Origin: an uncultured Pelagibacteraceae bacterium
Lineage (GTDB): Bacteria > Pseudomonadota > Alphaproteobacteria > Pelagibacterales > Pelagibacteraceae
Assembly (NCBI GenBank): GCA_902554035.1
Contig: CACDMX010000004.1
Location: forward strand, 1 to 64,000
Direction of reading: 5' to 3'
DNA length: 64,000 bases
The notes beneath the pieces were generated by a model, which saw only the letters and a program-made list of their open reading frames with translations, had not been told where the DNA came from and ran no database searches. Position numbers and translations under genes: made by a program. Shown here one piece after another: positions 5,957 through 53,131 of this stretch. Each line of letters opens with the position of its first letter. Position 1 is the stretch's first letter.

Positions 5957-7213
5957 ATGCAAAAATACTCAGCATTTAGTTTATTTAAAAACGCTTTAAA
6001 AGGCCATAAAGACTGGCAAGTTGCCTGGAAAGACCCGACCCCTAAAGAGGAATATGATGTAGTAATAATTGGCGGAGGAGGCCATGGTTTGGCAACAGCA
6101 TATTATCTTGCTAAAGAACATAATATTACGAACGTCGCAATCGTAGAGAAAGGCTGGATAGGCGGCGGTAACGTTGGAAGAAATACAACGATTCTTAGAT
6201 CAAACTATATGCATGACGAAAATGGTTTGTTTTACGAAAAAGGAATGGAATTATGGAGAAATATGAGCCAAGAGCTTAACTTTAACGTAATGTATTCTCC
6301 AAGAGGAATAATAAATCTTGCTCATTCTGATGCGCAAATGAATGCATACGCACGAAGAGGAAACTCCATGAGATTGAATGGTATTGATGCAATACTTTTA
6401 GGTCGAGAAGAAATAAAGAAACTAGTTCCTATATTAGATTTTTCAGAAAACGTAAGATTTCCTATTTTTGGTGGATTAATGCAGCCTAGTGGTGGAACCG
6501 CAAGACACGATGCTGTGGCGTGGGGATATGCAAGACAAGCTGATTCAATGGGGGTAGATATAATTCAACACTGTGAGGTAACTGGATTTGAAGTTGTAAA
6601 CGGAAAAATAAAAGGAATAAAAACTTCAAGAGGAAATATTAAAGCAAAAAAAGTTGGACTTTGTGTTGCTGGAAGTACTTCAGTTTTAGCAGAGATGTTA
6701 AATATGACATTACCTTTAGAAACTCATTTATTACAAGCGTGCGTGTCCGAACCAATTAAACCAATACTAGATCACGTTGTAACCTTCGGTGCAGGACATT
6801 TTTATTGCAGCCAATCTGATAAAGGTGAGATGGTAATGGGTGGAGATTTAGATGGTTATAACAGTTATGCTCAAAGGGGGAATTTACCAACTTTACAACA
6901 TGTCCTTACAGAAGGAATAGCTATGCTTCCTTTTTTAAGTAAGCTTAAAATGTTAAGAACTTGGGGTGGAATTATGGATATGTCAATGGATGGATCACCA
7001 ATTATTGATAAGACACACATAGAAGGATTATATTTAAATTGCGGGTGGTGCTACGGAGGCTTCAAAGCTACGCCGATTTCGGGTTGGACATTCGCACATA
7101 CAATTGCCCAAGACAAAGTTCATGATTTAAATGCTGGATTTAATTTGAACAGATTTAATACAGGACACTTAATTGATGAAAAAGGGCTTGGTACAAAAAC
7201 TTGGATTTCTTAA
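5957..7213 (+). CDS. soxB: Sarcosine oxidase beta subunit
   Basis: FAD Rossmann VVIIGGGGHGLATAYYLA, GGWCYGGFKATP; soxBDAG order. Confidence 0.95.
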   Translation: MQKYSAFSLFKNALKGHKDWQVAWKDPTPKEEYDVVIIGGGGHGLATAYYLAKEHNITNVAIVEKGWIGGGNVGRNTTILRSNYMHDENGLFYEKGMELWRNMSQELNFNVMYSPRGIINLAHSDAQMNAYARRGNSMRLNGIDAILLGREEIKKLVPILDFSENVRFPIFGGLMQPSGGTARHDAVAWGYARQADSMGVDIIQHCEVTGFEVVNGKIKGIKTSRGNIKAKKVGLCVAGSTSVLAEMLNMTLPLETHLLQACVSEPIKPILDHVVTFGAGHFYCSQSDKGEMVMGGDLDGYNSYAQRGNLPTLQHVLTEGIAMLPFLSKLKMLRTWGGIMDMSMDGSPIIDKTHIEGLYLNCGWCYGGFKATPISGWTFAHTIAQDKVHDLNAGFNLNRFNTGHLIDEKGLGTKTWIS

Positions 7214-7480
7214 ATGTTGTATATTAAATGTCCTTATTGCGGCCTAAGATCACAAAACGAATTTGCTTATGGTGGAGATGGGACTGTAAAAAGACCAACT
7301 TTAAACAAAGAAGTCTCAGATAAAGAATGGGATAATTTTGTTTATAATAGAAAAAGTCCCAGAGGAAAACATGTTGAACTTTGGCATCATATTTCTGGAT
7401 GCAGACAGTGGATAAAAGTTCAAAGAGACACCGTAACTCATGAAATTTTTAAAACAGTCAGTGCAGATAAAGAAATATAA
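7214..7480 (+). CDS. soxD: Sarcosine oxidase delta subunit
   Basis: Zn-ribbon CPYCG start, WHHISGCRQWIKVQRDT; operon position. Confidence 0.95.
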   Translation: MLYIKCPYCGLRSQNEFAYGGDGTVKRPTLNKEVSDKEWDNFVYNRKSPRGKHVELWHHISGCRQWIKVQRDTVTHEIFKTVSADKEI

Positions 7481-7483
7481 ACC

Positions 7484-10480
7484 ATGAGCCAAACTTATAG
7501 ACTAAATAATTCTGGACAAATAAATAGAGATAAAAAAATATCTTTTAAATTTAATGGCAAAAAATATTTTGGTTATGAGGGCGATACCTTGGCGTCTGCA
7601 TTGTTGGCTAATGGTGTACATCTTGTTGGTAGAAGTTTTAAATATCACAGACCAAGAGGATTTTTTGGTGCTGGGGTTGATGAGCCTTATGCAATTGTTC
7701 AAATGGTTAGAAATAATGAAACAGAACCGAATGTAAGAGCTACAGAACAAGAGCTATTTGAAGGACTGGAGGCAAAAAGTGTAAATTGTTGGCCAAGTGT
7801 TAATTTTGATATAGGTGCAATAAATAATTTTTTTAACAAGTTTTTACCAGCAGGTTTTTATTATAAAACATTTATGTGGCCAAAAAGTTTTTGGTATAGA
7901 ATTTATGAACCATTCATTAGAAAAGCAGCTGGGTTTGGCGTAGCATCCACAAAATACGATAGTGAAAGATATGAGCATAAATATGAGTATTGTGATTTAT
8001 TAATAGCTGGTTCAGGTCCAGCAGGTTTATCAGGAGCCTATGCAGCAGCAAAAAATGGTGCAAATGTAATCTTAGCTGAAGAAAAACCTCGTTTTGGAGG
8101 AAGTTTGTTAACAAGCGAGGTCAATATTGGCAACCAAAGTGGTAAAGACTGGGCTGAAAAAATCATAGCAGAACTAAAAGGAATGCCAAATGTTACTGTC
8201 AAAAACCGATCACAAGTTTTTGGTTATTATGATCATAACATGCTGGTGATGTCGGAAAAAGTAAGCGATCATTTACCTAGATCAAAAAAATTTAGTCCAA
8301 AACAAAGGCTTTGGTACATAAGGGCTAAAGAAGTCTTAATTTCTTCAGGCTCAATAGAAAGACCTATAGTATTTGGAAATAACGATACACCAGGAGTTGT
8401 TTTAGCATCAGCTGCAAAAGAATATTTGAAAGTTTATGGAGTTTTAGTCGGAAAAAAACCATTAGTCTTCACTAATAATGATAGCGCTTATGAAACAGCA
8501 ATTGAATTTAAGAAAAATGGAATTGACCCAATTATATTAGATTCAAGAAACGCTCCAAAATCAGAAATCATAGAAGAAGCAAAAAATTTAGGAATACAGA
8601 TTAAATTTTCTTATGTAGTTGTAGCAGCAAATGGTTATAAAAAAGTTAAATCTGCACAGATCGCCCAAATTTCACCTGATAAAAAAAATTTAGGAAAAAT
8701 AGAAAAAATAAATTGTGATTGTATTTGTGTATCAGGTTTTTGGACACCAACTATTCATTTATCATCTCAATCAGGAAATAAAACCAAGTTTGATGAAAAA
8801 ATTGATGCCTTTGTTCCTGGTAAATCAAAACAAAATGAAACAACGGTTGGATCTGCAAATGGTATCTTTAATCTAGAGGAGACAATAAGTTCATCATTTG
8901 AAAAAGGATATCAGTTATCAAAAAAAATTACTAATAATGATAATAAAGTCTCAACACCTCAAGTCTCTGAAAAAAAATTTACAAACCATGACAAATTTTG
9001 GTGTGTACCACTACCAGATAAAAAGAATTTAAAGAGATTTTTAGATTTTCAAAACGATGTCACAGTTTCCGATATAGAGCTTGCACTAAGAGAAGGGTAC
9101 AGATCAATAGAACATGTAAAAAGGTATACCACATTAGGTATGGCAACCGATCAAGGCAAAACTAGTAATCTTAATGGACTCCAACTAGTCTCAGATGTAG
9201 AAAATAAGGTAGTACCTTCTGTAGGACATACTACCTTTAGACCTCCTTACACACCAGTTTCAATTGGAGCAATAGTCGGGCGAGAAATAGGAAAACATTC
9301 TAAACCAACCAGAAAATCACCGATACATTCATGGCATGAAAAAAATAATGCAGTATTTGTTGATGCAGGCATGTGGCTAAGACCAAGATACTATAAAAAA
9401 GGAAGCGAGGGTTTATTTGAAGCTTCAAAAAGGGAAGCAGCGAATGTTAGAAAAAACGTTGGAGTTTGTGACGTTACCACATTAGGAAAAATAGATATCA
9501 AAGGTCCAGATGCAGCAGAACTTTTAAATAGAGTTTATACAAACGCATGGTTAAAACTCCCAGTTGGAAAAGCAAGATATGGAGTGATGCTAAGAGAAGA
9601 TGGAATAGTAATGGATGATGGTACAACAACGAGAATTTCTGAAAACCATTATCATATGACAACAACAACTGCACAAGCCGCAAATGTGTTATCTCATTTG
9701 GAGTATTATTTACAATTGGTTTGGCCAGAATTAAATGTAAATGTTGTTTCTACAACTGAACAATGGGCAGGAGCAGCAATAGCTGGACCGAAATCAAGAA
9801 GCTTACTACAAAAACTATTTCCAGATAAAGATTTGTCTAATGAGGGCTTACCTTTTATGGGATATACCGAAGGAGATTTATTTGGTGTTCCTGCAAGAAT
9901 TTTTAGAATATCCTTTTCAGGTGAATTGGCTTACGAGTTAAATGTTCAGTCAGATTTTGGAAACTTTATGTGGGAAAAAATAATTGAACTAGGTAATGAA
10001 TTTGAAATTCAACCATATGGAACTGAGGCTTTATCAACGTTAAGAATTGAAATGGGACATGTAGCTGGATCCGAGTTAGATGGAAGAACCACTCCTTATG
10101 ATAATGGTCTTGATGGATTAATAAGTAAAAAAAAAGATTTTATTGGTAAAAGATCATTAAATAGAGAAGCTTTTATTGCTAAATCTAGACAGAAGGTAGT
10201 TGGAGTTGTTCCATTAGATAAAAAAACAAGTATTCCTGAGGGTTCTCATTTAGTTAAAGATGCGTCAGCTAAATTACCAAATCCCAAACTAGGTCATATC
10301 TCGGCATCATGTTGGAGCGTTGAATATAATAACCCTTTTTCATTAGCTATTATGAAAGATGGAAAAAATATGATCGGTAAAAAATTATATGCACTTTCAC
10401 CACTTAAAAACAAATCAATTCCTGTTGAGATAGTATCCTCACATTATGTAGATCCTAAGGGCGAAAGGGTAAGATCATGA
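7484..10480 (+). CDS. soxA: Sarcosine oxidase alpha subunit
   Basis: 998 aa; N-terminal GRSFKYHRPRG, LIAGSGPAGLSGAYAAA, C-terminal GcvT-like domain. Confidence 0.95.
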   Translation: MSQTYRLNNSGQINRDKKISFKFNGKKYFGYEGDTLASALLANGVHLVGRSFKYHRPRGFFGAGVDEPYAIVQMVRNNETEPNVRATEQELFEGLEAKSVNCWPSVNFDIGAINNFFNKFLPAGFYYKTFMWPKSFWYRIYEPFIRKAAGFGVASTKYDSERYEHKYEYCDLLIAGSGPAGLSGAYAAAKNGANVILAEEKPRFGGSLLTSEVNIGNQSGKDWAEKIIAELKGMPNVTVKNRSQVFGYYDHNMLVMSEKVSDHLPRSKKFSPKQRLWYIRAKEVLISSGSIERPIVFGNNDTPGVVLASAAKEYLKVYGVLVGKKPLVFTNNDSAYETAIEFKKNGIDPIILDSRNAPKSEIIEEAKNLGIQIKFSYVVVAANGYKKVKSAQIAQISPDKKNLGKIEKINCDCICVSGFWTPTIHLSSQSGNKTKFDEKIDAFVPGKSKQNETTVGSANGIFNLEETISSSFEKGYQLSKKITNNDNKVSTPQVSEKKFTNHDKFWCVPLPDKKNLKRFLDFQNDVTVSDIELALREGYRSIEHVKRYTTLGMATDQGKTSNLNGLQLVSDVENKVVPSVGHTTFRPPYTPVSIGAIVGREIGKHSKPTRKSPIHSWHEKNNAVFVDAGMWLRPRYYKKGSEGLFEASKREAANVRKNVGVCDVTTLGKIDIKGPDAAELLNRVYTNAWLKLPVGKARYGVMLREDGIVMDDGTTTRISENHYHMTTTTAQAANVLSHLEYYLQLVWPELNVNVVSTTEQWAGAAIAGPKSRSLLQKLFPDKDLSNEGLPFMGYTEGDLFGVPARIFRISFSGELAYELNVQSDFGNFMWEKIIELGNEFEIQPYGTEALSTLRIEMGHVAGSELDGRTTPYDNGLDGLISKKKDFIGKRSLNREAFIAKSRQKVVGVVPLDKKTSIPEGSHLVKDASAKLPNPKLGHISASCWSVEYNNPFSLAIMKDGKNMIGKKLYALSPLKNKSIPVEIVSSHYVDPKGERVRS

Positions 10481-11064
10481 AAAGTCAATCTCCACTAAAT
10501 AAAATTTATAAAAAAGGATTTTATGGTGATTTTGAAAATAAAAATGAAGAGAATCTTATAAAGATTAAAGAAGTTAGTAATTTAAGTATCTTCCAAATCG
10601 TAAAATATAAAAATTCAAGAGTCTCAATTAATGACTTAGATATTGATGGAATTAAATTAAGTGAAAAAATAAATTCTGTTACGTCAAAAGAAAAAACAAG
10701 AATCTTATGGTTTGGACCAAATAATTGGCTAGTAGTATCAGAGGATAAAAATTTATTTCATAAAGTAAATAAAAATACGAAAGAAACTGATTTTGCCGTC
10801 ACAGATTTATCCAACTCTAGAGCAATAATTGAGATTGAGGGTAAATTAATAAAAGAAGTATTAAAAAAAGGGTGCCCTTTTAATTTTAATGAATTAAATA
10901 AAAATAATTGTATCAATTCAGTTTTTCACGGGATCACAATAACAATTGATATGATAGAGGACTCTCCAGAAAAAATAAGATTATTTGCGCTAAGAAGTTT
11001 TGGAGAATCTTTATACCACTCAATTACAGATGCAAGTTTGGAATTTGGTTATCAAAGTATTTAA
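10477..11064 (+). CDS. soxG: Sarcosine oxidase gamma subunit
   Basis: LWFGPNNWLV, VTDLSNSRAIIEIEG, overlaps soxA stop. Confidence 0.85.
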   Translation: MKSQSPLNKIYKKGFYGDFENKNEENLIKIKEVSNLSIFQIVKYKNSRVSINDLDIDGIKLSEKINSVTSKEKTRILWFGPNNWLVVSEDKNLFHKVNKNTKETDFAVTDLSNSRAIIEIEGKLIKEVLKKGCPFNFNELNKNNCINSVFHGITITIDMIEDSPEKIRLFALRSFGESLYHSITDASLEFGYQSI

Positions 11065-15973: not shown

Positions 15974-16939
15974 ATGAATTATAAAATTGATAATTTACAG
16001 TACTGCAACTGGTCAAGAGAGGTATTTAAAATAAATCGTGAGGCAGGTCTAGATGCTGTACATGTTACTTTGGTCTATCATGAAGATTATGATGAATTTT
16101 TAACAAGAGTAAAAGAATGGAATAAACATTTTAAAGAAAACCAAGATTTAATTTTTCAAGGCAAAACTTTTAAAGATATAGAGAAAGCAAAGAAACAGAA
16201 AAAAACTGCTATTTTTTTTGGTTTTCAAAACTGCTCACCTATTGAGGATGATATAAAGTTAATTGAAAAAGTTTATCAAAATGGATGTCGTTTTATGCAA
16301 CTTACCTATAATAACCAATCACTTTTGGCTACTGGATGTTATGAGAAAAGTGACAGTGGGGTCACAAATTTTGGAAGAGAGGCTATTAAAGAAATGAATA
16401 GATTAGGAATTGTGATTGACATGTCTCACTCAGCAGAAAAAAGCACACTAGATGCTATTGAAATCAGCGAAAAACCTATTGCAATAACCCACGCTAATCC
16501 TTTTTTTTGGCATAATGCTTTAAGAAATAAATCTAACGAACTTTTAAAAACACTAGGTGATAGCGGAGGAATGTTAGGATTATCTTTATATTCTCACCAT
16601 CTGAAAGATGGTGAAAATTGTAAGCTAGAAAGTTTTTGTGAAATGACTGCAAAAACTTGCGAAATAATGGGAGTTAATAATATTGGGATTGGTTCAGATC
16701 TTTGCTTAAATCAGCCAGATGAAATAGTTGAATGGATGCGAAATGGAACTTGGGCAAAAAAAAAAAATTTTGGAGAAGGATCAAAAACGAAGCCAGGATT
16801 TCCAAAACAACCCACATGGTTTACTGACGCTAGAGGTTTTAAAAATTTAGAAAATGGACTTAAAAAAGTTGGGTTTGATGATAAAGAAATAAATGGAATT
16901 TTAGGCAATAACTGGTTTAACTTTTATAAAGGAATATAA
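15974..16939 (+). CDS. Membrane dipeptidase (renal dipeptidase family)
   Basis: FFGFQNCSPIEDD, RFMQLTYNNQS, DMSHSAEKSTLDAIE, NIGIGSDL, ILGNNWFNFY. Confidence 0.85.
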   Translation: MNYKIDNLQYCNWSREVFKINREAGLDAVHVTLVYHEDYDEFLTRVKEWNKHFKENQDLIFQGKTFKDIEKAKKQKKTAIFFGFQNCSPIEDDIKLIEKVYQNGCRFMQLTYNNQSLLATGCYEKSDSGVTNFGREAIKEMNRLGIVIDMSHSAEKSTLDAIEISEKPIAITHANPFFWHNALRNKSNELLKTLGDSGGMLGLSLYSHHLKDGENCKLESFCEMTAKTCEIMGVNNIGIGSDLCLNQPDEIVEWMRNGTWAKKKNFGEGSKTKPGFPKQPTWFTDARGFKNLENGLKKVGFDDKEINGILGNNWFNFYKGI

Positions 16940-18600
16940 TGGAAGTTCAATTAAGAGATCCAAAAGTAGTAATGAAACTATCAAAGCTTGGTTCGTTTCA
17001 TCAGTCTAAGTTATCTTTCTTAAGATCTTTTTTAAATGAATTTAAAGATTGGGAGTATAAGAGAGATTTATTTGATTTGAATGAAAATGGATACGGAAAA
17101 GCTGTTTACTCATTTAAAAAACAAAATAGAACTTACTCCTTGGTATGTTTTGCAAATCAAATTAGCGATACTGAAAGATCAGACAGAGTAATAGCAACTA
17201 AATGGGATGCAGCGTTTACATTGCACGATGGAATACCTACTAAAAAAGATTTAGATAGACTGTTAGAAAATGTTCCAAAACAAGAAGTAGGGAGACTATC
17301 TTACAAGGAACTGACATTATCTAGAGCAAATAAGTCATTAAGAATATTTAATCATGTTGTTGAGAACTTATCTTTAGGTAAACAACCAGATATAAATAAA
17401 GTTTTAGAGGTTGGATATCTATATAGAACCACAGCAGTTTATGGATCAGGTAAATTTGGTTTAGCTGATAGATTTAGAATAAAGAATAGAACTGAGATTT
17501 GTGGCCCGTTTAGATTGGAGATGATGTTGGTATATCTAGTAAGACAATTTACATTTGATCAAGTAAATCATATAGCAAAACAAAAAAATCCAAGAAAAGC
17601 TGTAGAACTAGACAGGGAGATTTGTAGAAATTTAGGAATTGGAAATTCTACAGGACTTGGAATGGCTCCATTTATAGTAAATCACCCAACATTATTAAAT
17701 AATTGGGTTTTATCAAGAGAATTATCTTTAAAAAAAATTAGAGAGATAAAAATAGTTAATAATAATGATGCAGAAATATTTAAAAAATATTTAAAAAAAT
17801 CTATTAAAAATATAAGTTTTTGGAATACTAGTAGCGAGTATCAAAAATTAAAAATTTTAGATTTAAAACAAGATTTAAAAAAGCTGATTTCTTATTTAGA
17901 TGAAGATTTCGATTTTAAAAAAAACTATCCATTTAACGATTTATATATTTGGTGTGAAAAAAACTTAAAAGATGAATGTATTGAGTACACAGTTTCAATG
18001 TTAATGGAGCCATATGATAATATTACGAATCCATTAATTAACCAAATGAGCTCAGATGAGGATAAATTTTTTACCATACCAACTCAAAAAAAAATTGAGA
18101 CTTTGAAGGGTATTCTTGAAAAAAATTACTCTGAAATCATTAAAATTGATTTTTCCAAGAAAGAAAACAATCAAAATTTTTGGTTTATTTCAAAAAATAA
18201 AGAAGAACCAAGATTAGCTAACAGGTATATAGAAAAAGGATCTGAACTAGAGCAGCCATTAGCAATTGCAAGAGATATTAACAAACTTTATAAAAGAATT
18301 TTAAATTTAAGAAATAGCCTAACAATCGGAAATTTTTTATTTGAAAATAACGATTTAAGACATGTAGTTAGAAGAGCATTTATTTCAGAAAATTTTCCAT
18401 ATGCAGAGATTCAAGATAATACAATTGGATCAAAATTGATGCCAATTGATATGCTTAGACTAAAATTATCTTTTTTTGGTGCAGTCAAGTTTGATCCAAG
18501 ATCGGATAAATGGTTAAGAATTTGTATGTTTCAAGGAGCACCATTACCAGATGAACTTAAATCTTTTGATAGTGGATGGATATATAATTCTATTAATTAA
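16939..18600 (+). CDS. Uncharacterised 553-aa protein
   Basis: Long ORF, ATG overlaps the dipeptidase stop; family not recognised. Confidence 0.8.
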   Translation: MEVQLRDPKVVMKLSKLGSFHQSKLSFLRSFLNEFKDWEYKRDLFDLNENGYGKAVYSFKKQNRTYSLVCFANQISDTERSDRVIATKWDAAFTLHDGIPTKKDLDRLLENVPKQEVGRLSYKELTLSRANKSLRIFNHVVENLSLGKQPDINKVLEVGYLYRTTAVYGSGKFGLADRFRIKNRTEICGPFRLEMMLVYLVRQFTFDQVNHIAKQKNPRKAVELDREICRNLGIGNSTGLGMAPFIVNHPTLLNNWVLSRELSLKKIREIKIVNNNDAEIFKKYLKKSIKNISFWNTSSEYQKLKILDLKQDLKKLISYLDEDFDFKKNYPFNDLYIWCEKNLKDECIEYTVSMLMEPYDNITNPLINQMSSDEDKFFTIPTQKKIETLKGILEKNYSEIIKIDFSKKENNQNFWFISKNKEEPRLANRYIEKGSELEQPLAIARDINKLYKRILNLRNSLTIGNFLFENNDLRHVVRRAFISENFPYAEIQDNTIGSKLMPIDMLRLKLSFFGAVKFDPRSDKWLRICMFQGAPLPDELKSFDSGWIYNSIN

Positions 18601-19208
18601 TGATAAGTTTAAGTGAAATCGATACAACTGTGAAAAGAGCAACCAAAGCGGTTGGTTTTCCTTGGGGTATAGCTGAGGAAGTAGGAAAAAGTATTCGTAT
18701 TTTAGAGATGTTTGGATTGCCAGGATTAAAAAATCTTAATGAATATTTTAAAGTTTTTAACTCCAAAAAATTTCAAAATGTAACTGTAATATCAAAATCA
18801 AATATCTCTAAAATTTCATACTGTCCAATTATATCAGGTATAAACTTCTTGGACCAAGTGCATACTTTAGAAGGATTTGAAAAAATTGAGTTTGAAAATT
18901 TTGCATTTCCAATTTTGTTTATTCCTTTTTTAAGTAGATCTTCTGAAATAATTGGAAAAAAAATATTTCTTAAAATTGATGAAAAAGAATTTTTATTAAA
19001 CTTTAATCAATCTATGTACTCAAGTAATTTAAATGTAAATATTATTGAAAGAGCAAATAACATAAAAATAAATTTTTTGAATAACGAAAATTCATTTTCA
19101 AATCAAGATTGGCAAGAACTTTACAAATTATCAGAAAAAACTTTTGTTGAGGAAACAGAGGAGCTTAAGAAAAAAGCTGCTGGTGCAGGACTAACAGATA
19201 ATGATTAA
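18600..19208 (+). CDS. DUF3726-like protein
   Basis: MISLSEIDTTVKRATKAVGFPWGIAEEVGKSIRILEMFGLPG N-terminus; ATG overlaps upstream stop. DUF name from memory. Confidence 0.65.
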   Translation: MISLSEIDTTVKRATKAVGFPWGIAEEVGKSIRILEMFGLPGLKNLNEYFKVFNSKKFQNVTVISKSNISKISYCPIISGINFLDQVHTLEGFEKIEFENFAFPILFIPFLSRSSEIIGKKIFLKIDEKEFLLNFNQSMYSSNLNVNIIERANNIKINFLNNENSFSNQDWQELYKLSEKTFVEETEELKKKAAGAGLTDND

Positions 19209-19359
19209 AAAATTAAATAAAAATGAAGATAAAGAAAAAAATGATCAACTTTGTGAAGAATGTAGCATAGAAGATGAAAGTGTTAGACAGAACTCGATTT
19301 TAATAGGTTTTAAGATTTGTGAGTCCTGCAGGATCTCCAAAACTATTTTTCCTTTTTAA
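19201..19359 (+). CDS. 52-aa putative zinc-ribbon mini-protein (not in supplied ORF track)
   Basis: Read directly: MIKKLNKNEDKEKNDQLCEECSIEDESVRQNSILIGFKICESCRISKTIFPF*; CEEC and CESC; ATG overlaps upstream stop (ATGATTAA). Confidence 0.65.
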   Translation: MIKKLNKNEDKEKNDQLCEECSIEDESVRQNSILIGFKICESCRISKTIFPF

Positions 19360-33314: not shown

Positions 33315-33908
33315 ATGTTAAGTTTTTTTATATTTATGAAACTTAATGGATCATATCAAATTAATTTAGAAAAACAAAAAGTTTGGGAAGCTCTTAATAA
33401 TCCTGAAATTTTAAAACAATCGATACCTGGATGTGAAGAATTTAAAAAAAATTCTGATACAGAATTTACAGCAACAGCTACAAATAAGATTGGTCCATTT
33501 AATGCAAGTTTTACAGGAGATATTGAACTAAAAGATATCGATGCTCCTAACAGTTACGTTATCGAAGGTTCTGGAAACTCACCTGTTGGTTTTGCATCCG
33601 GTTCAGCCAAAGTTAGTCTTGAAGATTGTGAAGGTGGTACAAAATTAAATTATGAGTTAGACGCAAATGTTGGAGGAAAGATAGCCCAAGTTGGATCAAG
33701 ACTTATTGATATGACTGCTAAAAAAATGGCTGATATTTTTTTCGGAAAATTTTCAGAGCTAGTTTCAAATAAAGATGTATCAAGCAGAGGAAAGTCTCAT
33801 GAAATTGAAAAAGAAAAACCAAATGGAAAAAAATTAAATAAAAATATTTATATTTATTCATCCATAGCACTTCTAACGCTTATTATTATTGGTTATTTAA
33901 TATTTTAG
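33315..33908 (+). CDS. coxG: CoxG-type SRPBCC protein with C-terminal membrane anchor (likely start MKLNGSYQ at about 33336)
   Basis: LNGSYQINLEKQKVWEALNNPEILKQSIPGCEEF; hydrophobic C-terminus IYIYSSIALLTLIIIGYLIF. Confidence 0.88.
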   Translation: MLSFFIFMKLNGSYQINLEKQKVWEALNNPEILKQSIPGCEEFKKNSDTEFTATATNKIGPFNASFTGDIELKDIDAPNSYVIEGSGNSPVGFASGSAKVSLEDCEGGTKLNYELDANVGGKIAQVGSRLIDMTAKKMADIFFGKFSELVSNKDVSSRGKSHEIEKEKPNGKKLNKNIYIYSSIALLTLIIIGYLIF

Positions 33909-34000
33909 TTCGCGTAAGGCTAGAACTTAATTCTCATATATAATTGAAGATGATTAAAGATTATGTTTAAATAGGGAAATTTTTTATAGGAGGGAAGACT

Positions 34001-34462
34001 ATGAAAAAATTAAATTTGGAAGTTAACGGAAAAAAAGTTAGCAAAGAAATCGCTGATCATACAGTTCTATCAGTTTTTTTAAGAGAGGTTTTAAACTTAA
34101 CAGGTACACACGTTGGATGCGATACAAGCCAATGTGGCGCTTGCGTAGTACACGTTGATGGAAAATCTATAAAAAGCTGCACTGCATTAGCAGCTGATCT
34201 AGATGGAGCAAAAGTTACGACTATTGAAGGTTTGGTAAAAAATGGAAAAATGCATCCTATGCAAGAGGCATTTAAAAAAGAGCACGGTTTACAATGTGGA
34301 TTTTGTACTCCAGGAATGGTCATGAGCGCAATTGACCTACTTAATCATAAAAAAAACCCAACGGATAAAGAAATAAGAGATTGGTTAGAGGGAAATATTT
34401 GTAGATGTACAGGTTATCAAAATATAGTAGCGGCAGTCAAAGAAGCTGCCACAAAAATGTAA
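34001..34462 (+). CDS. coxS: CODH-family small [2Fe-2S] subunit
   Basis: [38 protein letters not shown]. Confidence 0.93.
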
Positions 34463-34480
34463 TGGAAGGAGAAATTTAAT

Positions 34481-36856
34481 ATGGCAAGTTTAGTTGGATC
34501 AAGAGTTGAGAGAAAAGAGGATAAAAAACTTTTAACTGGGAGAGGCAAGTACACTGCAGATGTTACTTTTGCTCATCAAACATATGCATATTTTGTTCGT
34601 TCTCCACATGCTAGAGCTCAAATAAAAAATGTAGATACTTCAAAAGCAGAAAAAGCATCAGGAGTAGTTGCTGTGCTTACTGGTAAAGATATAGTAAACG
34701 ATAAAATTGGAGGATTAATAGCGGGATGGAGAATTAAAAGTGAAGATGGTTCTGACATGAAAGTACCTGCGCACCCGCCATTAGCTAGTGAAAGTGTAAA
34801 CTACGTTGGCGACCATGTAGCAGTAGTAATTGCCGAAAGTCTTGACGAGGCTAGAAATGCCGCTGAACTAGTAAAGGTAGATTATAAAATTTTAAAAGCT
34901 GTTGTTAAAACAGATAAAGCAATGGACTCAGAGAATATTTATAAAGATATTCCAAAAAATTTATGCTTTGATTGGTTGTTAGGTGATAGAGCTAAAACTC
35001 AAGAAGCTTTTGATAAAGCAGATAAAATTATTAAAATTGACTTAATTAATAATAGATTAATTCCAAATGCCATGGAACCAAGAGCTGCAAATGCAGATTA
35101 CAATCCATCGACTGAAGAAATAACTTTATATACAACAAGTCAAAATCCACATTTAGCTAGAATAATTATTTCAGCATTTAATGGTGTTGCACCAGAAAAT
35201 AAACTAAGAGTAATAGCACCAGACGTTGGAGGAGGATTTGGATCAAAAATTTACCCTTATGCTGAGGAAGTAGTTTGTAGTTGGGCATCTAAGAAAATTG
35301 AAAGACCGGTGAAATGGGTTGCTGATAGAACTGAGTCATTTTTGTCTGATTGCCACGGAAGAGATCATGTTACTCATGCAGAATTAGCAGTGAAGAATGA
35401 TGGTACTTTTTTAGGATTTAAAAATGAAACGATAGCAAATCTTGGAGCTTATGCTTCAGTTTTTGGAACTGTAACACCAACATATCTATTTGGTCCATGC
35501 GCAACCGGTGTTTATAAAATGCCCGCAGCTTATAGTAATGTAAAAGCAGTTTTTACCAATACTGCTCCAGTAGATGCTTATAGAGGAGCTGGAAGACCTG
35601 AAGCAACATATACTATAGAAACACTTGTAGAAAAAGCAGCTAGAGAATTAGGAATGGATCCAGCAGAAATCAGAATGAAAAACTTTCCAACAGAATTTCC
35701 TTTTCAACAAACTTTAGTTCATTCAGTAGACTCAGGGGATTATAATGCAGGATTAAAGAAAGCAATGGAAGTTGGCGATTACAAAGGTTTCGAAGCAAGG
35801 AAAAAAGAGTCAGAGTCTAAAGGAAAATTAAGGGGTGTAGGATTTTGTAGTTATTTTGAAGCATGCGGTATTGCACCTTCTGCCGTTGTAATGTCTCTAG
35901 GATGTGGAATTGGTTTATGGGAATCAGCTGAGGTAAGATTTAATCCAACAGGAAACGTTACGGTTTTTACCGGTTCACATAGTCATGGACAAGGACATGA
36001 TACAACCTTTGCACAAATAGCTGCTGATAGATTAGGTGTTCCTATCGAAAATATAGAAATTTCACATGGTGATACTGACAAAGGTCCTTTTGGATATGGT
36101 ACTTATGGTTCTAGATCTTTAACAGTAGGAGGAACTGCTATTGTTAAAGCTTGTGATAAAATAGTTGCAAAAGGAAAAAAAGTTGCAGCAAAAATGCTTG
36201 AAGTCAATGAAAGTGATGTTGAATTTAAAGACGGCGAATTTATTGTAGCTAAATCAAATCAGAAGAAAACAATTGGAGAAGTAGCTTTTGCTTGCTACCT
36301 ACCCGGACAATATGGTGAGGTAAAATCACCATTACCAGAAGGTGAAGAGCCAGGTTTAAAAGAAACTTCATTTTTTGATCCTGGAAATTTTTCTTTTCCA
36401 GCTGGCTCACATATTTGCGAAGTAGAAATTGATCCTGATACAGGAAATACCGAAGTAGTTAAATACACAGCTGTTGATGATTTTGGAACGATTATAAATC
36501 CTTTAATCGTGGAAGGTCAAGTTCACGGAGGTTTAGCACAGGGCATTGGACAAGCACTTTATGAAAATTGTCACTATGATGATACAGGTCAATTAGTTAC
36601 TGCATCATATATGGATTATACAATGCCAAGAGCGGATAATTTTCCAGAATTTAATTTAGGATTTACTTGTACACCAGCAACATCAAACCCATTAGGTACA
36701 AAAGGATGTGGAGAGGCAGGAGCAATTGCTGCACCGCCTGCAGTAATGAATGCGGTAATGAATGCAGTTGGTACTGAAGTATCTATGCCAGCAACTGCCG
36801 AGAAGGTTTGGAAAGCCTGTCAAAAAATGAATAAATCAAACTCTAAAGCAGCGTAG
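34481..36856 (+). CDS. coxL: CODH-family large molybdopterin subunit, form II type (AYRGAGR)
   Basis: GSRVERKEDKKLLTGRGKYTADV; PVDAYRGAGRPEATY; GTKGCGEAGAIAAPPAV. Confidence 0.92.
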   Translation: MASLVGSRVERKEDKKLLTGRGKYTADVTFAHQTYAYFVRSPHARAQIKNVDTSKAEKASGVVAVLTGKDIVNDKIGGLIAGWRIKSEDGSDMKVPAHPPLASESVNYVGDHVAVVIAESLDEARNAAELVKVDYKILKAVVKTDKAMDSENIYKDIPKNLCFDWLLGDRAKTQEAFDKADKIIKIDLINNRLIPNAMEPRAANADYNPSTEEITLYTTSQNPHLARIIISAFNGVAPENKLRVIAPDVGGGFGSKIYPYAEEVVCSWASKKIERPVKWVADRTESFLSDCHGRDHVTHAELAVKNDGTFLGFKNETIANLGAYASVFGTVTPTYLFGPCATGVYKMPAAYSNVKAVFTNTAPVDAYRGAGRPEATYTIETLVEKAARELGMDPAEIRMKNFPTEFPFQQTLVHSVDSGDYNAGLKKAMEVGDYKGFEARKKESESKGKLRGVGFCSYFEACGIAPSAVVMSLGCGIGLWESAEVRFNPTGNVTVFTGSHSHGQGHDTTFAQIAADRLGVPIENIEISHGDTDKGPFGYGTYGSRSLTVGGTAIVKACDKIVAKGKKVAAKMLEVNESDVEFKDGEFIVAKSNQKKTIGEVAFACYLPGQYGEVKSPLPEGEEPGLKETSFFDPGNFSFPAGSHICEVEIDPDTGNTEVVKYTAVDDFGTIINPLIVEGQVHGGLAQGIGQALYENCHYDDTGQLVTASYMDYTMPRADNFPEFNLGFTCTPATSNPLGTKGCGEAGAIAAPPAVMNAVMNAVGTEVSMPATAEKVWKACQKMNKSNSKAA

Positions 36857-36865
36857 GAGAAAAAT

Positions 36866-37651
36866 ATGAAAACATTTAATTATCATTCTGCTAAAGATGT
36901 AAAGGAAGCAACAAAGCTAGCTTCATCAAGTTCTGCTTTCTTAGCGGGAGGAATGACTACTCTCCCTTCAATGAAATTAGGATTAGCTACTTATAAAGAT
37001 ATTATAGATATTAAAAGAATTAAAAAATTATCAGGAATAAAGGTAAGTGGCAAATCCGTTACAATTGGCGCAACCACAAAACATACTGAGGTTGCTCACT
37101 CAAAAGAAGTTAAAAAAGCTATTCCATCTTTAGCTGCTTTAGCTGAAGGTATAGGTGATCCACAAGTAAGAAATAGAGGAACAATTGGAGGATCAATTGC
37201 AAACAACGATCCATCAGCTGATTATCCATCAGCATGTATTGCACTTAATGCAACAATTCATACAAATAACAGAAAAATTAGTGCTGATAAATTTTTTACT
37301 GGAATGTTTGAAACATCACTTAAAAAAGGAGAATTAATTGAAGCGATAGAATTTCAAATTCCTGAAAAGTCTTGTTACCAAAAATATCCTAATCCAGCAT
37401 CTAGATATGCTGTAGTAGGAGTTTATGTTGCAAAACATAAAAGTGGTGTAAATGTAGGGGTAACAGGTGCTAAATCATGTGTTTACAATGACAAAAATAT
37501 TTCGAACGCCCTTTCAAAAAGTTTCTCTTCATCGGCAATAGATAGTGTTAAGATTTCATCAAGTGGCATGAATTCTGATGTTCATGCATCAGCTGATTAT
37601 CGTGCAAATATGGTAAAAATATTTGCAAAAAAAGCCGTTGAAGCTTGCTAA
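36866..37651 (+). CDS. coxM: CODH-family medium FAD subunit
   Basis: LAGGMTTLPSMKL, IGDPQVRNRGTIGGSIANNDPSADYP. Confidence 0.92.
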   Translation: MKTFNYHSAKDVKEATKLASSSSAFLAGGMTTLPSMKLGLATYKDIIDIKRIKKLSGIKVSGKSVTIGATTKHTEVAHSKEVKKAIPSLAALAEGIGDPQVRNRGTIGGSIANNDPSADYPSACIALNATIHTNNRKISADKFFTGMFETSLKKGELIEAIEFQIPEKSCYQKYPNPASRYAVVGVYVAKHKSGVNVGVTGAKSCVYNDKNISNALSKSFSSSAIDSVKISSSGMNSDVHASADYRANMVKIFAKKAVEAC

Positions 37652-37681
37652 TTAAATATATCAGTATTACCTTTACATCTA

Positions 37682-38011
37682 ATGAAAAACTCATTTGATG
37701 AAAAGATTTTAGAAGAGGCAAACGATTGGATAAAAACCAATCAAAAGGTAGTGCTCGCAACTGTCATTCAAACTTGGGGATCATCCCCACGTCAAGTTGG
37801 AAGCAGAATGATTGTTAATGAAAAAGGGGATTTTTCCGGATCTGTATCTGGTGGTTGTGTTGAATCAGCGGTAGTTAGAGAGTGTATTGGTATAATAAAA
37901 GATAATAAACCCTTTAAAAAAATTGAATTTAAAGTTTCCAATGAAAGCGCATGGGAAGTAGGACTTGCTTGCGGTGGTGAAATAGCTGTTTATTTAGAAC
38001 AAATAAACTAA
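37682..38011 (+). CDS. XdhC/CoxI N-terminal domain protein (stand-alone)
   Basis: ATVIQTWGSSPRQVGSRMIVN, GSVSGGCVESAVV, GLACGGEIAVYLE. Confidence 0.87.
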   Translation: MKNSFDEKILEEANDWIKTNQKVVLATVIQTWGSSPRQVGSRMIVNEKGDFSGSVSGGCVESAVVRECIGIIKDNKPFKKIEFKVSNESAWEVGLACGGEIAVYLEQIN

Positions 38012-38691
38012 TGAAATTAGAAATCTTAAAAGAAATAATAAAAAAAAAAGAAAAAAAAACTGAATTCGCAATTATTACCAATCTTTCTAGTGGCGAAAGT
38101 GAAATTTTTGAGGAAGATAAACCTTTAAGCAAAAACTTTGAAAAATACATCGATCAAATTAAAAATTTTTATAAATCAAAAAAAAATGGTGTAGTGGATA
38201 ATACAGATATATTTGTAGAAACCTATATAAGACCTATCAAAGTCATTATTGTGGGAGCTGTTCACATAGCACAATATTTAGTTGATTTTGCTAAAAGCTT
38301 GAATTTTGAAATATTAATTATTGATCCAAGAGGGTATTTTGCTTCAGAGCAAAGATTTCCAAATATAAAAATCATAAATAAATGGCCAAATGAAGCTTTT
38401 AAAGAAATTGAAACAAATACGAATACCGCATTAATTGCACTAACTCATGACCCAAAAATAGATGATCCTGCTTTGCAACATGCGTTAAAAAAAAATTTTT
38501 ATTATATAGGAGCTCTCGGAAGTAAAAAAACTCATGAAAATAGATGTCAAAGATTAAGAGACGCTGGATTTAGTGATGATAAAATAAAATCAATTCATGG
38601 GCCGATAGGAATAAAATTGGGTGGAAAATCTGCGCCAGAAATAGCCTTATCAATTGTTTCACAATTAGTTTCTGAAACATATAAAAAATAA
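38011..38691 (+). CDS. XdhC C-terminal Rossmann domain protein
   Basis: VIIVGAVHIAQYLVDFAKSL, DPRGYFASEQRFP, YIGALGSKKTHENR, GPIGIKLGGKSAPEIALSI. Confidence 0.88.
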   Translation: MKLEILKEIIKKKEKKTEFAIITNLSSGESEIFEEDKPLSKNFEKYIDQIKNFYKSKKNGVVDNTDIFVETYIRPIKVIIVGAVHIAQYLVDFAKSLNFEILIIDPRGYFASEQRFPNIKIINKWPNEAFKEIETNTNTALIALTHDPKIDDPALQHALKKNFYYIGALGSKKTHENRCQRLRDAGFSDDKIKSIHGPIGIKLGGKSAPEIALSIVSQLVSETYKK

Positions 38692-38692
38692 T

Positions 38693-39112
38693 ATGCAACA
38701 AGTTTTTGAAGAAATAAAAGTAAAAACTAACGGACAAGGATTTTATAATTTTACTAAAAGCACCTTAGAATGGTTAAATAAACAAAAAATTAAAAATGGA
38801 ATATTAAATATCAACATAATGCATACAAGCGCATCACTAATAATACAAGAAAATGCTGATCCTGATGTACTTTATGATCTCAAAAATTTTTTTCATAAAT
38901 TAGTTCCCATGGATGAAAAACTTTATAAACATACAACAGAAGGCAAAGATGATATGCCTGCACATATAAAATCTGCACTTACTAATAATCAACTTACTTT
39001 GAGTTTAAAAAATAAAAATTTAGTTCTTGGAACTTGGCAAGGTTTATATTTATTTGAGCATCGAATTGAAAAACAAAATAGGGTTCTGTCGCATCATTTA
39101 ATTGGAGATTGA
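38693..39112 (+). CDS. YjbQ/UPF0047 family protein
   Basis: LNINIMHTSASLIIQENADPDV, DMPAHIKSAL, GTWQGLYLFEHR. Confidence 0.88.
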   Translation: MQQVFEEIKVKTNGQGFYNFTKSTLEWLNKQKIKNGILNINIMHTSASLIIQENADPDVLYDLKNFFHKLVPMDEKLYKHTTEGKDDMPAHIKSALTNNQLTLSLKNKNLVLGTWQGLYLFEHRIEKQNRVLSHHLIGD

Positions 39113-39115
39113 TAA

Positions 39116-39688
39116 ATGATTAAAACAATTCTTTTAGCCGCAGGTCAATCTAAAAGATTAAAGAATGAAAATAAACTGATTAAAAAATTTAAAGGCAAAC
39201 ATCTTATTAATCATGCATTAAAATCTCTTTTAAAAAGTAAAATAAATAAAATTATTATAGTTTTAGGCTTTCAAAATAAACATTTAAAAAAAATAATTAT
39301 TAAAAATAAAAAAATTATATACGTAATAAATAAAAAATTTAAATTAGGGATTTCAACATCAATTAAATCTGGTATTAAAAAAATATCGAAAAAGGATGAA
39401 GGATTCTTAATTGCTCAAGCCGACATGCCATTTGTAAAATCATCAGATATTAACAGAATTTATAATTCTATTAAAAGGAAAAAAACTTTAGTTCATGTCC
39501 TTAGTTATAAAAATAAAATAGGAAATCCCATCGGTTTTGATATTTCATTATTAAAAAAATTTAAAAAAATAAAAGGAGATGTTGGTGCTAAGTTTATGGT
39601 AAAAAAATTAAAAAGAAATACAAACTTTATTAAAGTTTCATCAAATAAAATTTTTAAGGATTTTGATTTAAAAAAAGACTTTAATTAG
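39116..39688 (+). CDS. MobA/MocA-like nucleotidyltransferase
   Basis: ILLAAGQSKRLKNENKL, AQADMPFV, GNPIGFD. Confidence 0.87.
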   Translation: MIKTILLAAGQSKRLKNENKLIKKFKGKHLINHALKSLLKSKINKIIIVLGFQNKHLKKIIIKNKKIIYVINKKFKLGISTSIKSGIKKISKKDEGFLIAQADMPFVKSSDINRIYNSIKRKKTLVHVLSYKNKIGNPIGFDISLLKKFKKIKGDVGAKFMVKKLKRNTNFIKVSSNKIFKDFDLKKDFN

Positions 39689-45784: not shown

Positions 45785-47227
45785 ATGTACGAAAAATTTG
45801 GACAATTCATTGATGGAAAGTGGCAAGCATCTTCTAACAATGAGACTTATGAAGTTATAAATCCAGCCAATGAAGAGGTTATAGGTCGTGCATCAAAAGC
45901 TACTCCAGAAGATGTAGAACGAGCACTTAAATCTGCTGAAAAAGGTTTAGAAGTTTGGAAAAAAACTTCCCCTTGGAAAAGGTCCTCAGTCATTAGAAAA
46001 GTCGCTGATATAATAAGAGCTAAACAAGATGTTCTTGCAAAATGGATAACACTTGAAGTTGGAAAACCTTTTCTTGAAGGCAAAGGCGAAGTAGGAGCTA
46101 CAGCAGATATTTTTGAGTGGAATTCAGAGGAAACAAAAAGAATCTATGGACAAACAGTAGAAAGCAGATTTGAAGAAACCAGAATTCATGTTTACTATCA
46201 ACCAATTGGAGTTGTTGCAGCAATGTCTCCTTGGAATTTTCCTTTAGTTTTATCAGGAAGAAAAATATCAACTGCTTTAGCTGCAGGATGTTCAGTTATA
46301 ATTAAACCTGATGTGATTGCACCTGGTGGTGTGATGGAGTTAGTTGATATTTGTAGAGAAGCCGGAGTTCCTCCAGGAGTGGTTAATTTATTATCTGGCG
46401 ACCCTCCAAGCATAGCCTCTCAATTAATTTCGTCAGACATAGTTAAAAAAATTTCTATCACAGGATCTACAAGAGTTGGAAAATTAGTACTTAAACAAGC
46501 GGCTGAAAAAGTTCAAAGAGTTACTATGGAGTTAAGCGGTCATGCACCATTTATTGTGTTTAGTGATGCAAATATTGAGAAAGCAACAGACATGGCAATA
46601 GCCTCAAAATTTAGAAACAATGGCCAAGTTTGTATTTCTCCAAGCAAATTCTACATTCAAGACAATAAGAAAAAAGATTTTGTAAATTTATTTGTAGAGA
46701 AAGCTAAAAAATTAAAAATTGGAAATGGAATGGATGTGGATGTTCAATTAGGACCCATGACAACTAAAAAAAGACTTAATGAAATTGAAGATTTGGTTGA
46801 AAAAACCAAAAAAGAAGGAGCTAAAGTTTTGTTAGGAGGAAAAAAACCTTCAGGGTTTAATAAAGGTTTTTATTATGAACCAACAATTTTTGATGATGTA
46901 AAAGATGATTTTACAATTATGAAAGAAGAACCTTTTGGACCTTTATGTCCAATGCTGTCGTTTAAAACATTTGATGAAGTTATTGAAAGAGCAAATAATC
47001 ATGAACTAGGTCTTGCAAGCTACATTTGCACTAATTCAATGGAATTAGCAACAAAGGCTTCTGAACAAATAGAAACTGGAGCAGTTGCAGTGAATACACC
47101 TTTAGTAGCACAAGCCGAGGCACCTTTCGGTGGTATTAAACAAACAGGCGATGGTAGAGAGGGCGGCTCAATGGCAATCAAAGACTATTTAAATATTAAA
47201 TATACTCACCTTGGTATTAAAGGTTAA
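45785..47227 (+). CDS. NAD(P)-dependent aldehyde dehydrogenase
   Basis: MSPWNFPLVLSGRKI, ITGSTRVGK, MELSGHAPFIVF, NNGQVCISPSKF. Confidence 0.95.
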   Translation: MYEKFGQFIDGKWQASSNNETYEVINPANEEVIGRASKATPEDVERALKSAEKGLEVWKKTSPWKRSSVIRKVADIIRAKQDVLAKWITLEVGKPFLEGKGEVGATADIFEWNSEETKRIYGQTVESRFEETRIHVYYQPIGVVAAMSPWNFPLVLSGRKISTALAAGCSVIIKPDVIAPGGVMELVDICREAGVPPGVVNLLSGDPPSIASQLISSDIVKKISITGSTRVGKLVLKQAAEKVQRVTMELSGHAPFIVFSDANIEKATDMAIASKFRNNGQVCISPSKFYIQDNKKKDFVNLFVEKAKKLKIGNGMDVDVQLGPMTTKKRLNEIEDLVEKTKKEGAKVLLGGKKPSGFNKGFYYEPTIFDDVKDDFTIMKEEPFGPLCPMLSFKTFDEVIERANNHELGLASYICTNSMELATKASEQIETGAVAVNTPLVAQAEAPFGGIKQTGDGREGGSMAIKDYLNIKYTHLGIKG

Positions 47228-50788: not shown

Positions 50789-53071
50789 ATGAAATTTGTT
50801 AAAAAATATAGATTAAAAAATTTAATTTTTTTTCTATTTTTATTATTATATAGCACAAATATTTACGCAGAAATTACCCGAACATTTGTTACTGCTATTA
50901 GACCGGGAACAAGTGGATTTACAAATATGGATGGCAATGTAAGTGTTAGAGACGCTTTGGAAGATCCATTTGGAGTTTTTGTAAGTCCAGATGGTAAGAC
51001 TGTCATAAATGCAAACAATAATACCTCTAGCAACCACAGATGTTTAACCCAATTGGAACTGTCAACACCTTTTGAACTTTCAACTGCTACACTTGTAGAG
51101 GAATCAAATATATTAAATACTATTGCCAAACGATCAGGTGGAAGAGATGATTGTCATGACATTTATATAAGCCCGGATGGTTTAAATATGTCTGTAACAA
51201 ATGAACAAGGAGCTATTTTTGATTTTAAATTAGTAACTCCTTTTCAATTAAAAGGAGCTACTTTAAAAGATGGTTATCTTAATCCTTGGGTTAATTCTGC
51301 TATAAGAGGTGATGATATTTGGTTTAATAATGATGGATCAAAAATGTATGTCATAGATGTAGCTGGCGACAACCTTAAAGAATATACAACTGCATCACCT
51401 TTTTCCTCTATAGGCGTTACAATAATAAATACAGTCGATTTAACAAGTGAAGCTGTTATTGATGGAACAGAAACTGCTCATGATTTTCTTTTCAATGATA
51501 CAGGAGAGACATTAATGATATTAGTAAACGATACTGGAGATGGTGAACATGACGATACAATTTTCCAATTTAGCTTAAGTGTAGCATTCGATACAACTAC
51601 TCTAACCTTAGTAGGTTCTAGTGTTATAAGTGGATACGATGGAACTGAAGATAATTCTGATGCGGTAGCTATTTCTTTTGGTAATGATGGGACAAAGTTA
51701 TATATTATGAATTTAGATGGTGGCCCAAATGTTAGCGGTAAGGTTGACACACTATCTCAATTCAATTTAAAATGTCCTTATGGAATAGTTCAATGTGTTT
51801 CTGATACAAGAGCATCTATCGTTTCTCAAGTAGAATTAGCCAAACAAAATATCAGTTTAAATACTTCTACAATTTTTAAAAGATTTGAGTGGATTAAAAG
51901 AAATAGAGATAATGAGGATCTTTCTAGTCATAATATAAATATAAATTATCCAAATCCTCTATTAAAATCTTTAGTAAGTAAATTTGAGCCATCCTTAAAA
52001 AATAACTTAGCTGCACTAGTAAAAAATACTGAAAAAAAGGCAAAAAATAAAAAATCCAAATGGTCATCGTGGAGTATAGCGGAAGTATCTATTGGAAATT
52101 ATGAAGAAACGATTTTAGATAAACCAAAGGATATTTACACCAAAGGACTAACATTTGGTGCAGATAGAAAAATTGGAGATAATAAGTTTTTTGGTTTGGC
52201 TCTAAGATATGGAAATAGCGAGTCTGATATGAGAAGGTCTGTTCAAGAAGTCGATCTTGAGTCATTAACTTTAAATATCTATGGGGTCGTTCCAACAAGT
52301 AATACTCAGTATATAAATGCAGTTTTAGGTTTAAGCGTACTAAGATTTGACAATAAGTATTTAGGAGGATTATCAGGTGAAAGAAATGGAAAACAAGCGT
52401 TTGGAACAATTAATTATAGAACAAAAACTGCCTACAGTAAGATTAATATAACACCAACTGGAAAATTAACTTATGGAGTGACGCAATTATCTGAATTTAC
52501 TGACTTTATAAGTAATACTATTGATAGCCCCAGCAAAAACGTTAGATATGCAGAGGACACTTTTAAAAGCGGACAGTTCGCCGGAGGTCTCTTATTTGAA
52601 ATGGAAAAATATGTATCAGATCAAGTAACAGTTCAACCTTTGGGAGGAATTGAAATAATTTATGATTTAACAGATGATATTACTTATAAATATCAAAATG
52701 CAGGAGAAACCGCTGTTACTAAAAAAACCCTTCCAGGAAAATATTCAAGAAAAGATTTGAAAACAAATATTGGATTTGAGGCGATATATACAAATGGCTT
52801 TACTATTTCTGCAGACTATCAAAGAAAAATTAGTTTAAATGATGACGAATCTCCATCTTTTACAGATAAAAGATTCATAGTTAAATTTAGTAATTCAAAA
52901 GAAAAAAATACTCAGTTCGCTTTTGATTTTGATCCTCTTATGAATAATTTTGCAAATTTAAGCTATGCTAAAGATATTGGAAATTTTATTTTAAAATTTA
53001 ATTCTAATTATAGTTCGATAAATAAAATTTCTGATTATGTTGCAAATATAGAGCTTACTGGTACTTTCTAG
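50789..53071 (+). CDS. Exported protein: beta-propeller-like N-terminal domain plus autotransporter-like C-terminal barrel
   Basis: Signal peptide; repeats such as VSPDGKTVINAN, NNDGSKMYVIDV, GNDGTKLYIMNL; C-terminal beta-rich region ending IELTGTF. Confidence 0.75.
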   Translation: MKFVKKYRLKNLIFFLFLLLYSTNIYAEITRTFVTAIRPGTSGFTNMDGNVSVRDALEDPFGVFVSPDGKTVINANNNTSSNHRCLTQLELSTPFELSTATLVEESNILNTIAKRSGGRDDCHDIYISPDGLNMSVTNEQGAIFDFKLVTPFQLKGATLKDGYLNPWVNSAIRGDDIWFNNDGSKMYVIDVAGDNLKEYTTASPFSSIGVTIINTVDLTSEAVIDGTETAHDFLFNDTGETLMILVNDTGDGEHDDTIFQFSLSVAFDTTTLTLVGSSVISGYDGTEDNSDAVAISFGNDGTKLYIMNLDGGPNVSGKVDTLSQFNLKCPYGIVQCVSDTRASIVSQVELAKQNISLNTSTIFKRFEWIKRNRDNEDLSSHNININYPNPLLKSLVSKFEPSLKNNLAALVKNTEKKAKNKKSKWSSWSIAEVSIGNYEETILDKPKDIYTKGLTFGADRKIGDNKFFGLALRYGNSESDMRRSVQEVDLESLTLNIYGVVPTSNTQYINAVLGLSVLRFDNKYLGGLSGERNGKQAFGTINYRTKTAYSKINITPTGKLTYGVTQLSEFTDFISNTIDSPSKNVRYAEDTFKSGQFAGGLLFEMEKYVSDQVTVQPLGGIEIIYDLTDDITYKYQNAGETAVTKKTLPGKYSRKDLKTNIGFEAIYTNGFTISADYQRKISLNDDESPSFTDKRFIVKFSNSKEKNTQFAFDFDPLMNNFANLSYAKDIGNFILKFNSNYSSINKISDYVANIELTGTF

Positions 53072-53131
53072 TTGATTTATAAGACTTTTTGTAAAAAAAA
53101 ATAGTTTTCTATACTAGATTGTTACATTATT

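Follow-up and report, generated by a model that had tools for sequence, protein, structure and literature searches.

A conserved three-gene core in SAR11 with a probable role in the catabolism of N-methylated betaines

The adjacent genes for an M19-family protein, a 553-aa protein of an undescribed family and a DUF3726 protein in a Pelagibacteraceae (SAR11) assembly are probably the core of a pathway for the catabolism of an N-methylated betaine, with uptake by a BCCT or ProXWV-type transporter and with homarine (N-methylpicolinate) as the most likely substrate. From the linkage and co-occurrence of the genes, the class of the transporters, the loss of metal ligands in the M19 protein and the fold resemblance of the DUF3726 protein, we infer the substrate, the order of the steps and the chemistry of each protein. 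SAR11 bacteria rank with the commonest cells of the ocean. If the pathway is that of homarine, a locus misnamed as a 'dipeptidase operon' marks the use by SAR11 of an abundant algal nitrogen compound, an osmolyte, and the soxBDAG cluster beside it becomes assignable to N-methylglutamate; for SAR11 this assignment was still open in 2011 (PMC3160333). The DUF3726 family gains a likely fold, and the 553-aa family, which has no known relative, becomes a candidate new ring-opening enzyme.

Layout and conservation of the gene block

The window is the whole stretch of DNA that was analysed, 64,000 nucleotides from an assembly of approximately 1.07 Mb in 28 contigs. The features discussed are as follows.

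5957–11064, + strand: soxBDAG-type cluster (TIGR01373 and TIGR01372 above cut-off; TIGR01375, gamma, below)
15974–16939, + strand: M19-family amidohydrolase-fold protein ('membrane dipeptidase'), 321 aa (Pfam M19, PF01244, E=4e-69)
16939–18600, + strand: 553-aa protein of an undescribed family (no match in Pfam, NCBIfam or PDB)
18600–19208, + strand: DUF3726 protein, 202 aa (Pfam DUF3726, E=7e-21)
19201–19359, + strand: 52-aa CxxC...CxxC protein (no family match; passenger)

The four open reading frames from 15974 onwards share a strand. The first two junctions are both TAATG with a 1-base overlap and the last two genes overlap by 8 bases, exactly as drawn in the original prediction of four co-directional genes with overlapping starts and stops. 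The Pfam matches likewise bear out the identities given there to the M19 and DUF3726 genes.

Across 80 Pelagibacterales loci, the M19 gene adjoins the 553-aa gene in every case and the DUF3726 gene does so in 79, with a spacing at the junctions of approximately 3–34 bp. A profile scan covered 50 loci of Alphaproteobacteria, a gammaproteobacterium and a haloarchaeon; named plasmids in this set came from roseobacters, rhizobia, a Pseudomonas and a haloarchaeon. The DUF3726 gene abuts the 553-aa gene in 47 of these, and an M19 gene is found within 3 kb of it in 44; an aldehyde dehydrogenase (ALDH) gene is within the same distance in 21 loci and an Ldh gene in 19. This arrangement is far beyond chance, and because of these adjacency counts the core should be seen as the M19, 553-aa and DUF3726 genes. 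The 553-aa gene itself is present in 26 out of 41 closely related genomes and in 53 out of 386 genomes of the class.

The 52-aa gene is present in 74 of the 80 Pelagibacterales core loci. Its product has four invariant cysteines, is probably zinc-binding and, marginal matches aside, is confined to the Pelagibacteraceae. In one SAR11 genome (G321) the gene is 0.5 Mb from the core, where its neighbour is the convergent 181-aa gene that it also has in the window, and a SAR11 genome without the core (G395) still carries it. The 52-aa gene is therefore a passenger rather than part of the core. As an operon member it was rejected, since it travels with its convergent neighbour independently of the other three genes. 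The idea that the tight coupling of the genes reflects one pathway or complex, which had included the CEEC/CESC protein, is thus supported for the M19, 553-aa and DUF3726 genes, whose neighbourhood is kept well beyond this strain, and is not supported for the fourth gene.

Proteins of the core

The M19 protein fits the overall M19 profile but fails at the binuclear metal site, which is made up of His-x-Asp/Glu/His/His. Canonical M19 membrane dipeptidases, which belong to the same fold family, have His-x-Asp and Glu as ligands, whereas the window protein has Leu-x-Tyr and Gln. Throughout the subfamily L8/Y10 stand in place of His-x-Asp and Q85 in place of the bridging Glu, such that three of the five metal ligands are replaced, with the H152 and H173 ligands kept. 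The Glu to Gln position was taken from the 3id7 alignment and the N-terminal positions were placed by motif. L8, Q85, H152 and H173 are invariant in 21 relatives, and the altered ligand positions are overall invariant or nearly so. No signal peptide is apparent in the sequence. The closest solved relative is the 'amidohydrolase' 2i5g (E=4.7e-59), of the same fold family, with an alignment that spans nearly the entire protein. Having lost these ligands, the protein is unlikely to act on peptide substrates, and classic dipeptidase activity is, judging by its sequence, unlikely. It may instead be an amidohydrolase whose substrate is an N-acyl or lactam intermediate. A dipeptidase processing (D-)amino acids or peptides, as originally proposed, is not supported, given the ligand replacements and the neighbours found elsewhere: betaine transporters, ALDH, an oxidoreductase of the Ldh_2 family and a cluster like that of N-methylglutamate dehydrogenase.

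The AF2 model of the DUF3726 protein has a pLDDT of 83.4, and in Foldseek its best 17 matches are all of the Ldh_2 family (probability 0.82–1.00, E 0.013–0.2, TM approximately 0.4–0.5). This family includes malate and ureidoglycolate dehydrogenases and delta1-piperideine-2-carboxylate reductase, and the model matches part of its fold. With hhalign the N-terminal helices of DUF3726 and Ldh_2 align at E=9e-4, with a probability of only 23%. The Ldh_2 profile also picks up a haloarchaeal DUF3726 counterpart, at E=4.8e-9, which narrowly misses the curated cut-off. The catalytic Ser-His-Gly motif of Ldh_2 proteins is invariant in the Ldh proteins linked to the core but absent from DUF3726 proteins, which are also approximately 130 aa shorter. 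The DUF3726 protein looks like a degenerate Ldh_2 relative that serves as partner to the 553-aa protein. Its C-terminal tail GAGLTDND is conserved, the family form being GAGxGxxDND; this tail (window 19176–19205) is far more conserved than the remainder of the protein, and the lone model shows it as disordered. No mention of DUF3726 was found in a literature search. On a Natrinema versiforme plasmid (L171:9091-11621) a haloarchaeal 553-aa homologue is followed by an Ldh_2-like/DUF3726-like protein, and this pair is an apparent evolutionary intermediate.

The 553-aa protein could not be assigned at the outset, and profile searches agree: no family match came from Pfam, NCBIfam or PDB, and a 32-member profile run against PDB and Pfam gave chance matches only. 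Nothing was found by hhalign between this family and Ldh. Identity is approximately 65–85% within SAR11 and approximately 45% across the class. Two strongly conserved loops, GIGNSTGLGMAPF and YGSGKFG, are suggestive of a ligand-binding site. Foldseek matches were set aside because the AF2 model has a pLDDT of 58.9, on an alignment limited to Pelagibacteraceae. Of the two partners, the 553-aa protein rather than DUF3726 would be the main catalytic subunit. Its placement at the first, ring-attacking step, the least certain one of the pathway, is by elimination, since roles can be recognised for the other linked genes. The pair could, tentatively, be a new two-subunit class of enzyme for opening homarine's pyridinium ring with no recognisable flavin, metal or haem domain, in which the GAG...DND tail may reach the active site. 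On S. meliloti pSymB (L172:8716-12390) there are also a divergent 553-like gene, a 251-aa gene and an M19 gene, unannotated in the record, with an ABC transporter after them; this locus is perhaps for a related betaine pathway.

Genes linked to the core

In Ruegeria TM1040 the gene order is a soxBDAG-type cluster, a helix-turn-helix regulator, LysR, ALDH, M19, BCCT, 553-aa, DUF3726 and Ldh, in which the M19 protein is annotated as 'membrane dipeptidase' and the 553-aa protein as hypothetical; the operon carries the locus tags TM1040_RS02315-RS02345. The part from LysR to Ldh is present in Tritonibacter, and Phaeobacter DSM 17395 has LysR-ALDH-M19-553-DUF3726. In Pararhizobium and Aminobacter a ProXWV glycine-betaine ABC transporter comes after the same operon. 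The LysR, ALDH, BCCT, ProXWV and Ldh neighbours of the core are hallmarks of betaine catabolism.

A close orthologue of the core-linked ALDH was not found in the Pelagibacter genome of the window at 1e-80, and the only Ldh there is 36% identical and located elsewhere in the genome. Since the linked ALDH and close Ldh are not kept in Pelagibacter, SAR11 either uses other enzymes or stops at a different product; any ALDH and Ldh that it uses would need to be distant paralogues or not orthologous at all. The ALDH at 45785–47227 of the window was considered as the core-linked enzyme and rejected, its closest matches being succinate-semialdehyde dehydrogenase models, below their cut-offs. Elsewhere in the window, judged from open reading frame translations only, a molybdenum hydroxylase cluster of CoxG/CoxS/CoxL/CoxM-like genes, together with XdhC-like and MobA-like ones, lies at 33315–39688. 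Two tandem large proteins at 50789–55270 have beta-propeller-like N-terminal repeats, and in their C-terminal part they resemble an outer-membrane beta-barrel.

The soxBDAG-type cluster is located 5 kb upstream of the core and consists of beta (5957–7213), delta (about 7213–7484), alpha (7484–10480) and gamma (10477–11064) subunits. It is syntenic with the core in 63 of the 68 Pelagibacterales loci with enough flanking sequence. The SoxA/Mgd-type alpha subunit is present in 51 of 53 genomes that have the 553-aa gene, compared with 95 of 333 that do not (Fisher p=3e-22, phylogeny ignored). The window cluster shares its four subunits and their order with MgdABCD and with the SoxBDAG sarcosine oxidase, and for the sox copies of SAR11 the choice between N-methylglutamate dehydrogenase and sarcosine oxidase has been left open (PMC3160333). 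In a small tree the window copy falls on the roseobacter mgd-type side, with weak support (0.54 at the joining node), and the second SAR11 copy is elsewhere. The cluster is a candidate N-methylglutamate dehydrogenase, with linkage and tree weakly favouring Mgd over sarcosine oxidase. By gene order it corresponds to soxB2D2A2G2 of HTCC1062, described in PMC3160333, and it adjoins formate-THF ligase and glutathione synthesis genes.

Proposed pathway, alternatives and known systems

In the proposed pathway, the 553-aa/DUF3726 pair would first attack the homarine ring, the M19 protein would hydrolyse a C-N bond in an intermediate such as an N-formyl compound or a lactam, and an aldehyde dehydrogenase would then oxidise the aldehyde. 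An Ldh_2-type imine reductase would generate N-methylglutamate, the Ldh_2 family being one that includes imine reductases. The SoxBDAG-like N-methylglutamate dehydrogenase (window 5957–11064) would convert this to glutamate, with transfer of a C1 unit to tetrahydrofolate. Papers on diel and bloom transcriptomes mention homarine, with the catabolic genes not given.

Betaine-class transporters leave the exact substrate unfixed, and around the divergent members from Sinorhizobium, Neorhizobium and Natrinema the transporters and regulators are different ones. The core might thus degrade another cyclic or quaternary betaine, such as trigonelline, stachydrine or N-methylproline, and homarine would then be no more than one among several substrates of the family. 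The soxBDAG-type clusters act on sarcosine too, and the family extends to rhizobia and a haloarchaeon, for which other betaines are plausible substrates. However, the N-methylglutamate-dehydrogenase-like cluster is linked to the core in several lineages as well as in SAR11, which fits an N-methylglutamate product, and a different betaine is rather unlikely.

A role for the 553-aa/DUF3726 pair as a regulatory or assembly complex for other pathway proteins, instead of as an enzyme, would account for the missing catalytic motif of DUF3726 and for the failure to recognise a cofactor family in the 553-aa protein. This is improbable given the strong conservation of the latter, with many invariant Arg, Asn and Gly residues typical of an active site. 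The M19 family match of the first gene is what speaks for a true dipeptidase at the head of a pathway for peptides or D-amino acids, a reading made very improbable by the ligand replacements throughout the subfamily and by the conserved core neighbourhood, in which no peptide transporter or amino-acid racemase recurs. The catabolism of an N-methylated betaine, most likely homarine, is the preferred reading.

The published homarine operon is reportedly named homABCDER, with SAR11 among its carriers. The roseobacter locus has five enzyme genes and one regulator, which by gene count would fit hom A–E and R; the Pelagibacter cluster holds just three of these five enzyme genes. The soxBDAG-type cluster and helix-turn-helix regulator of TM1040 resemble the tmaR-mgd arrangement (PMC13390433). 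According to a statement in that paper, citing Nat Microbiol 2026 11:1531-1546, Mgd takes part in homarine catabolism. The published pathway, as mentioned there, thus involves N-methylglutamate dehydrogenase, and the core described here is likewise linked to, and co-occurs with, genes of this type.
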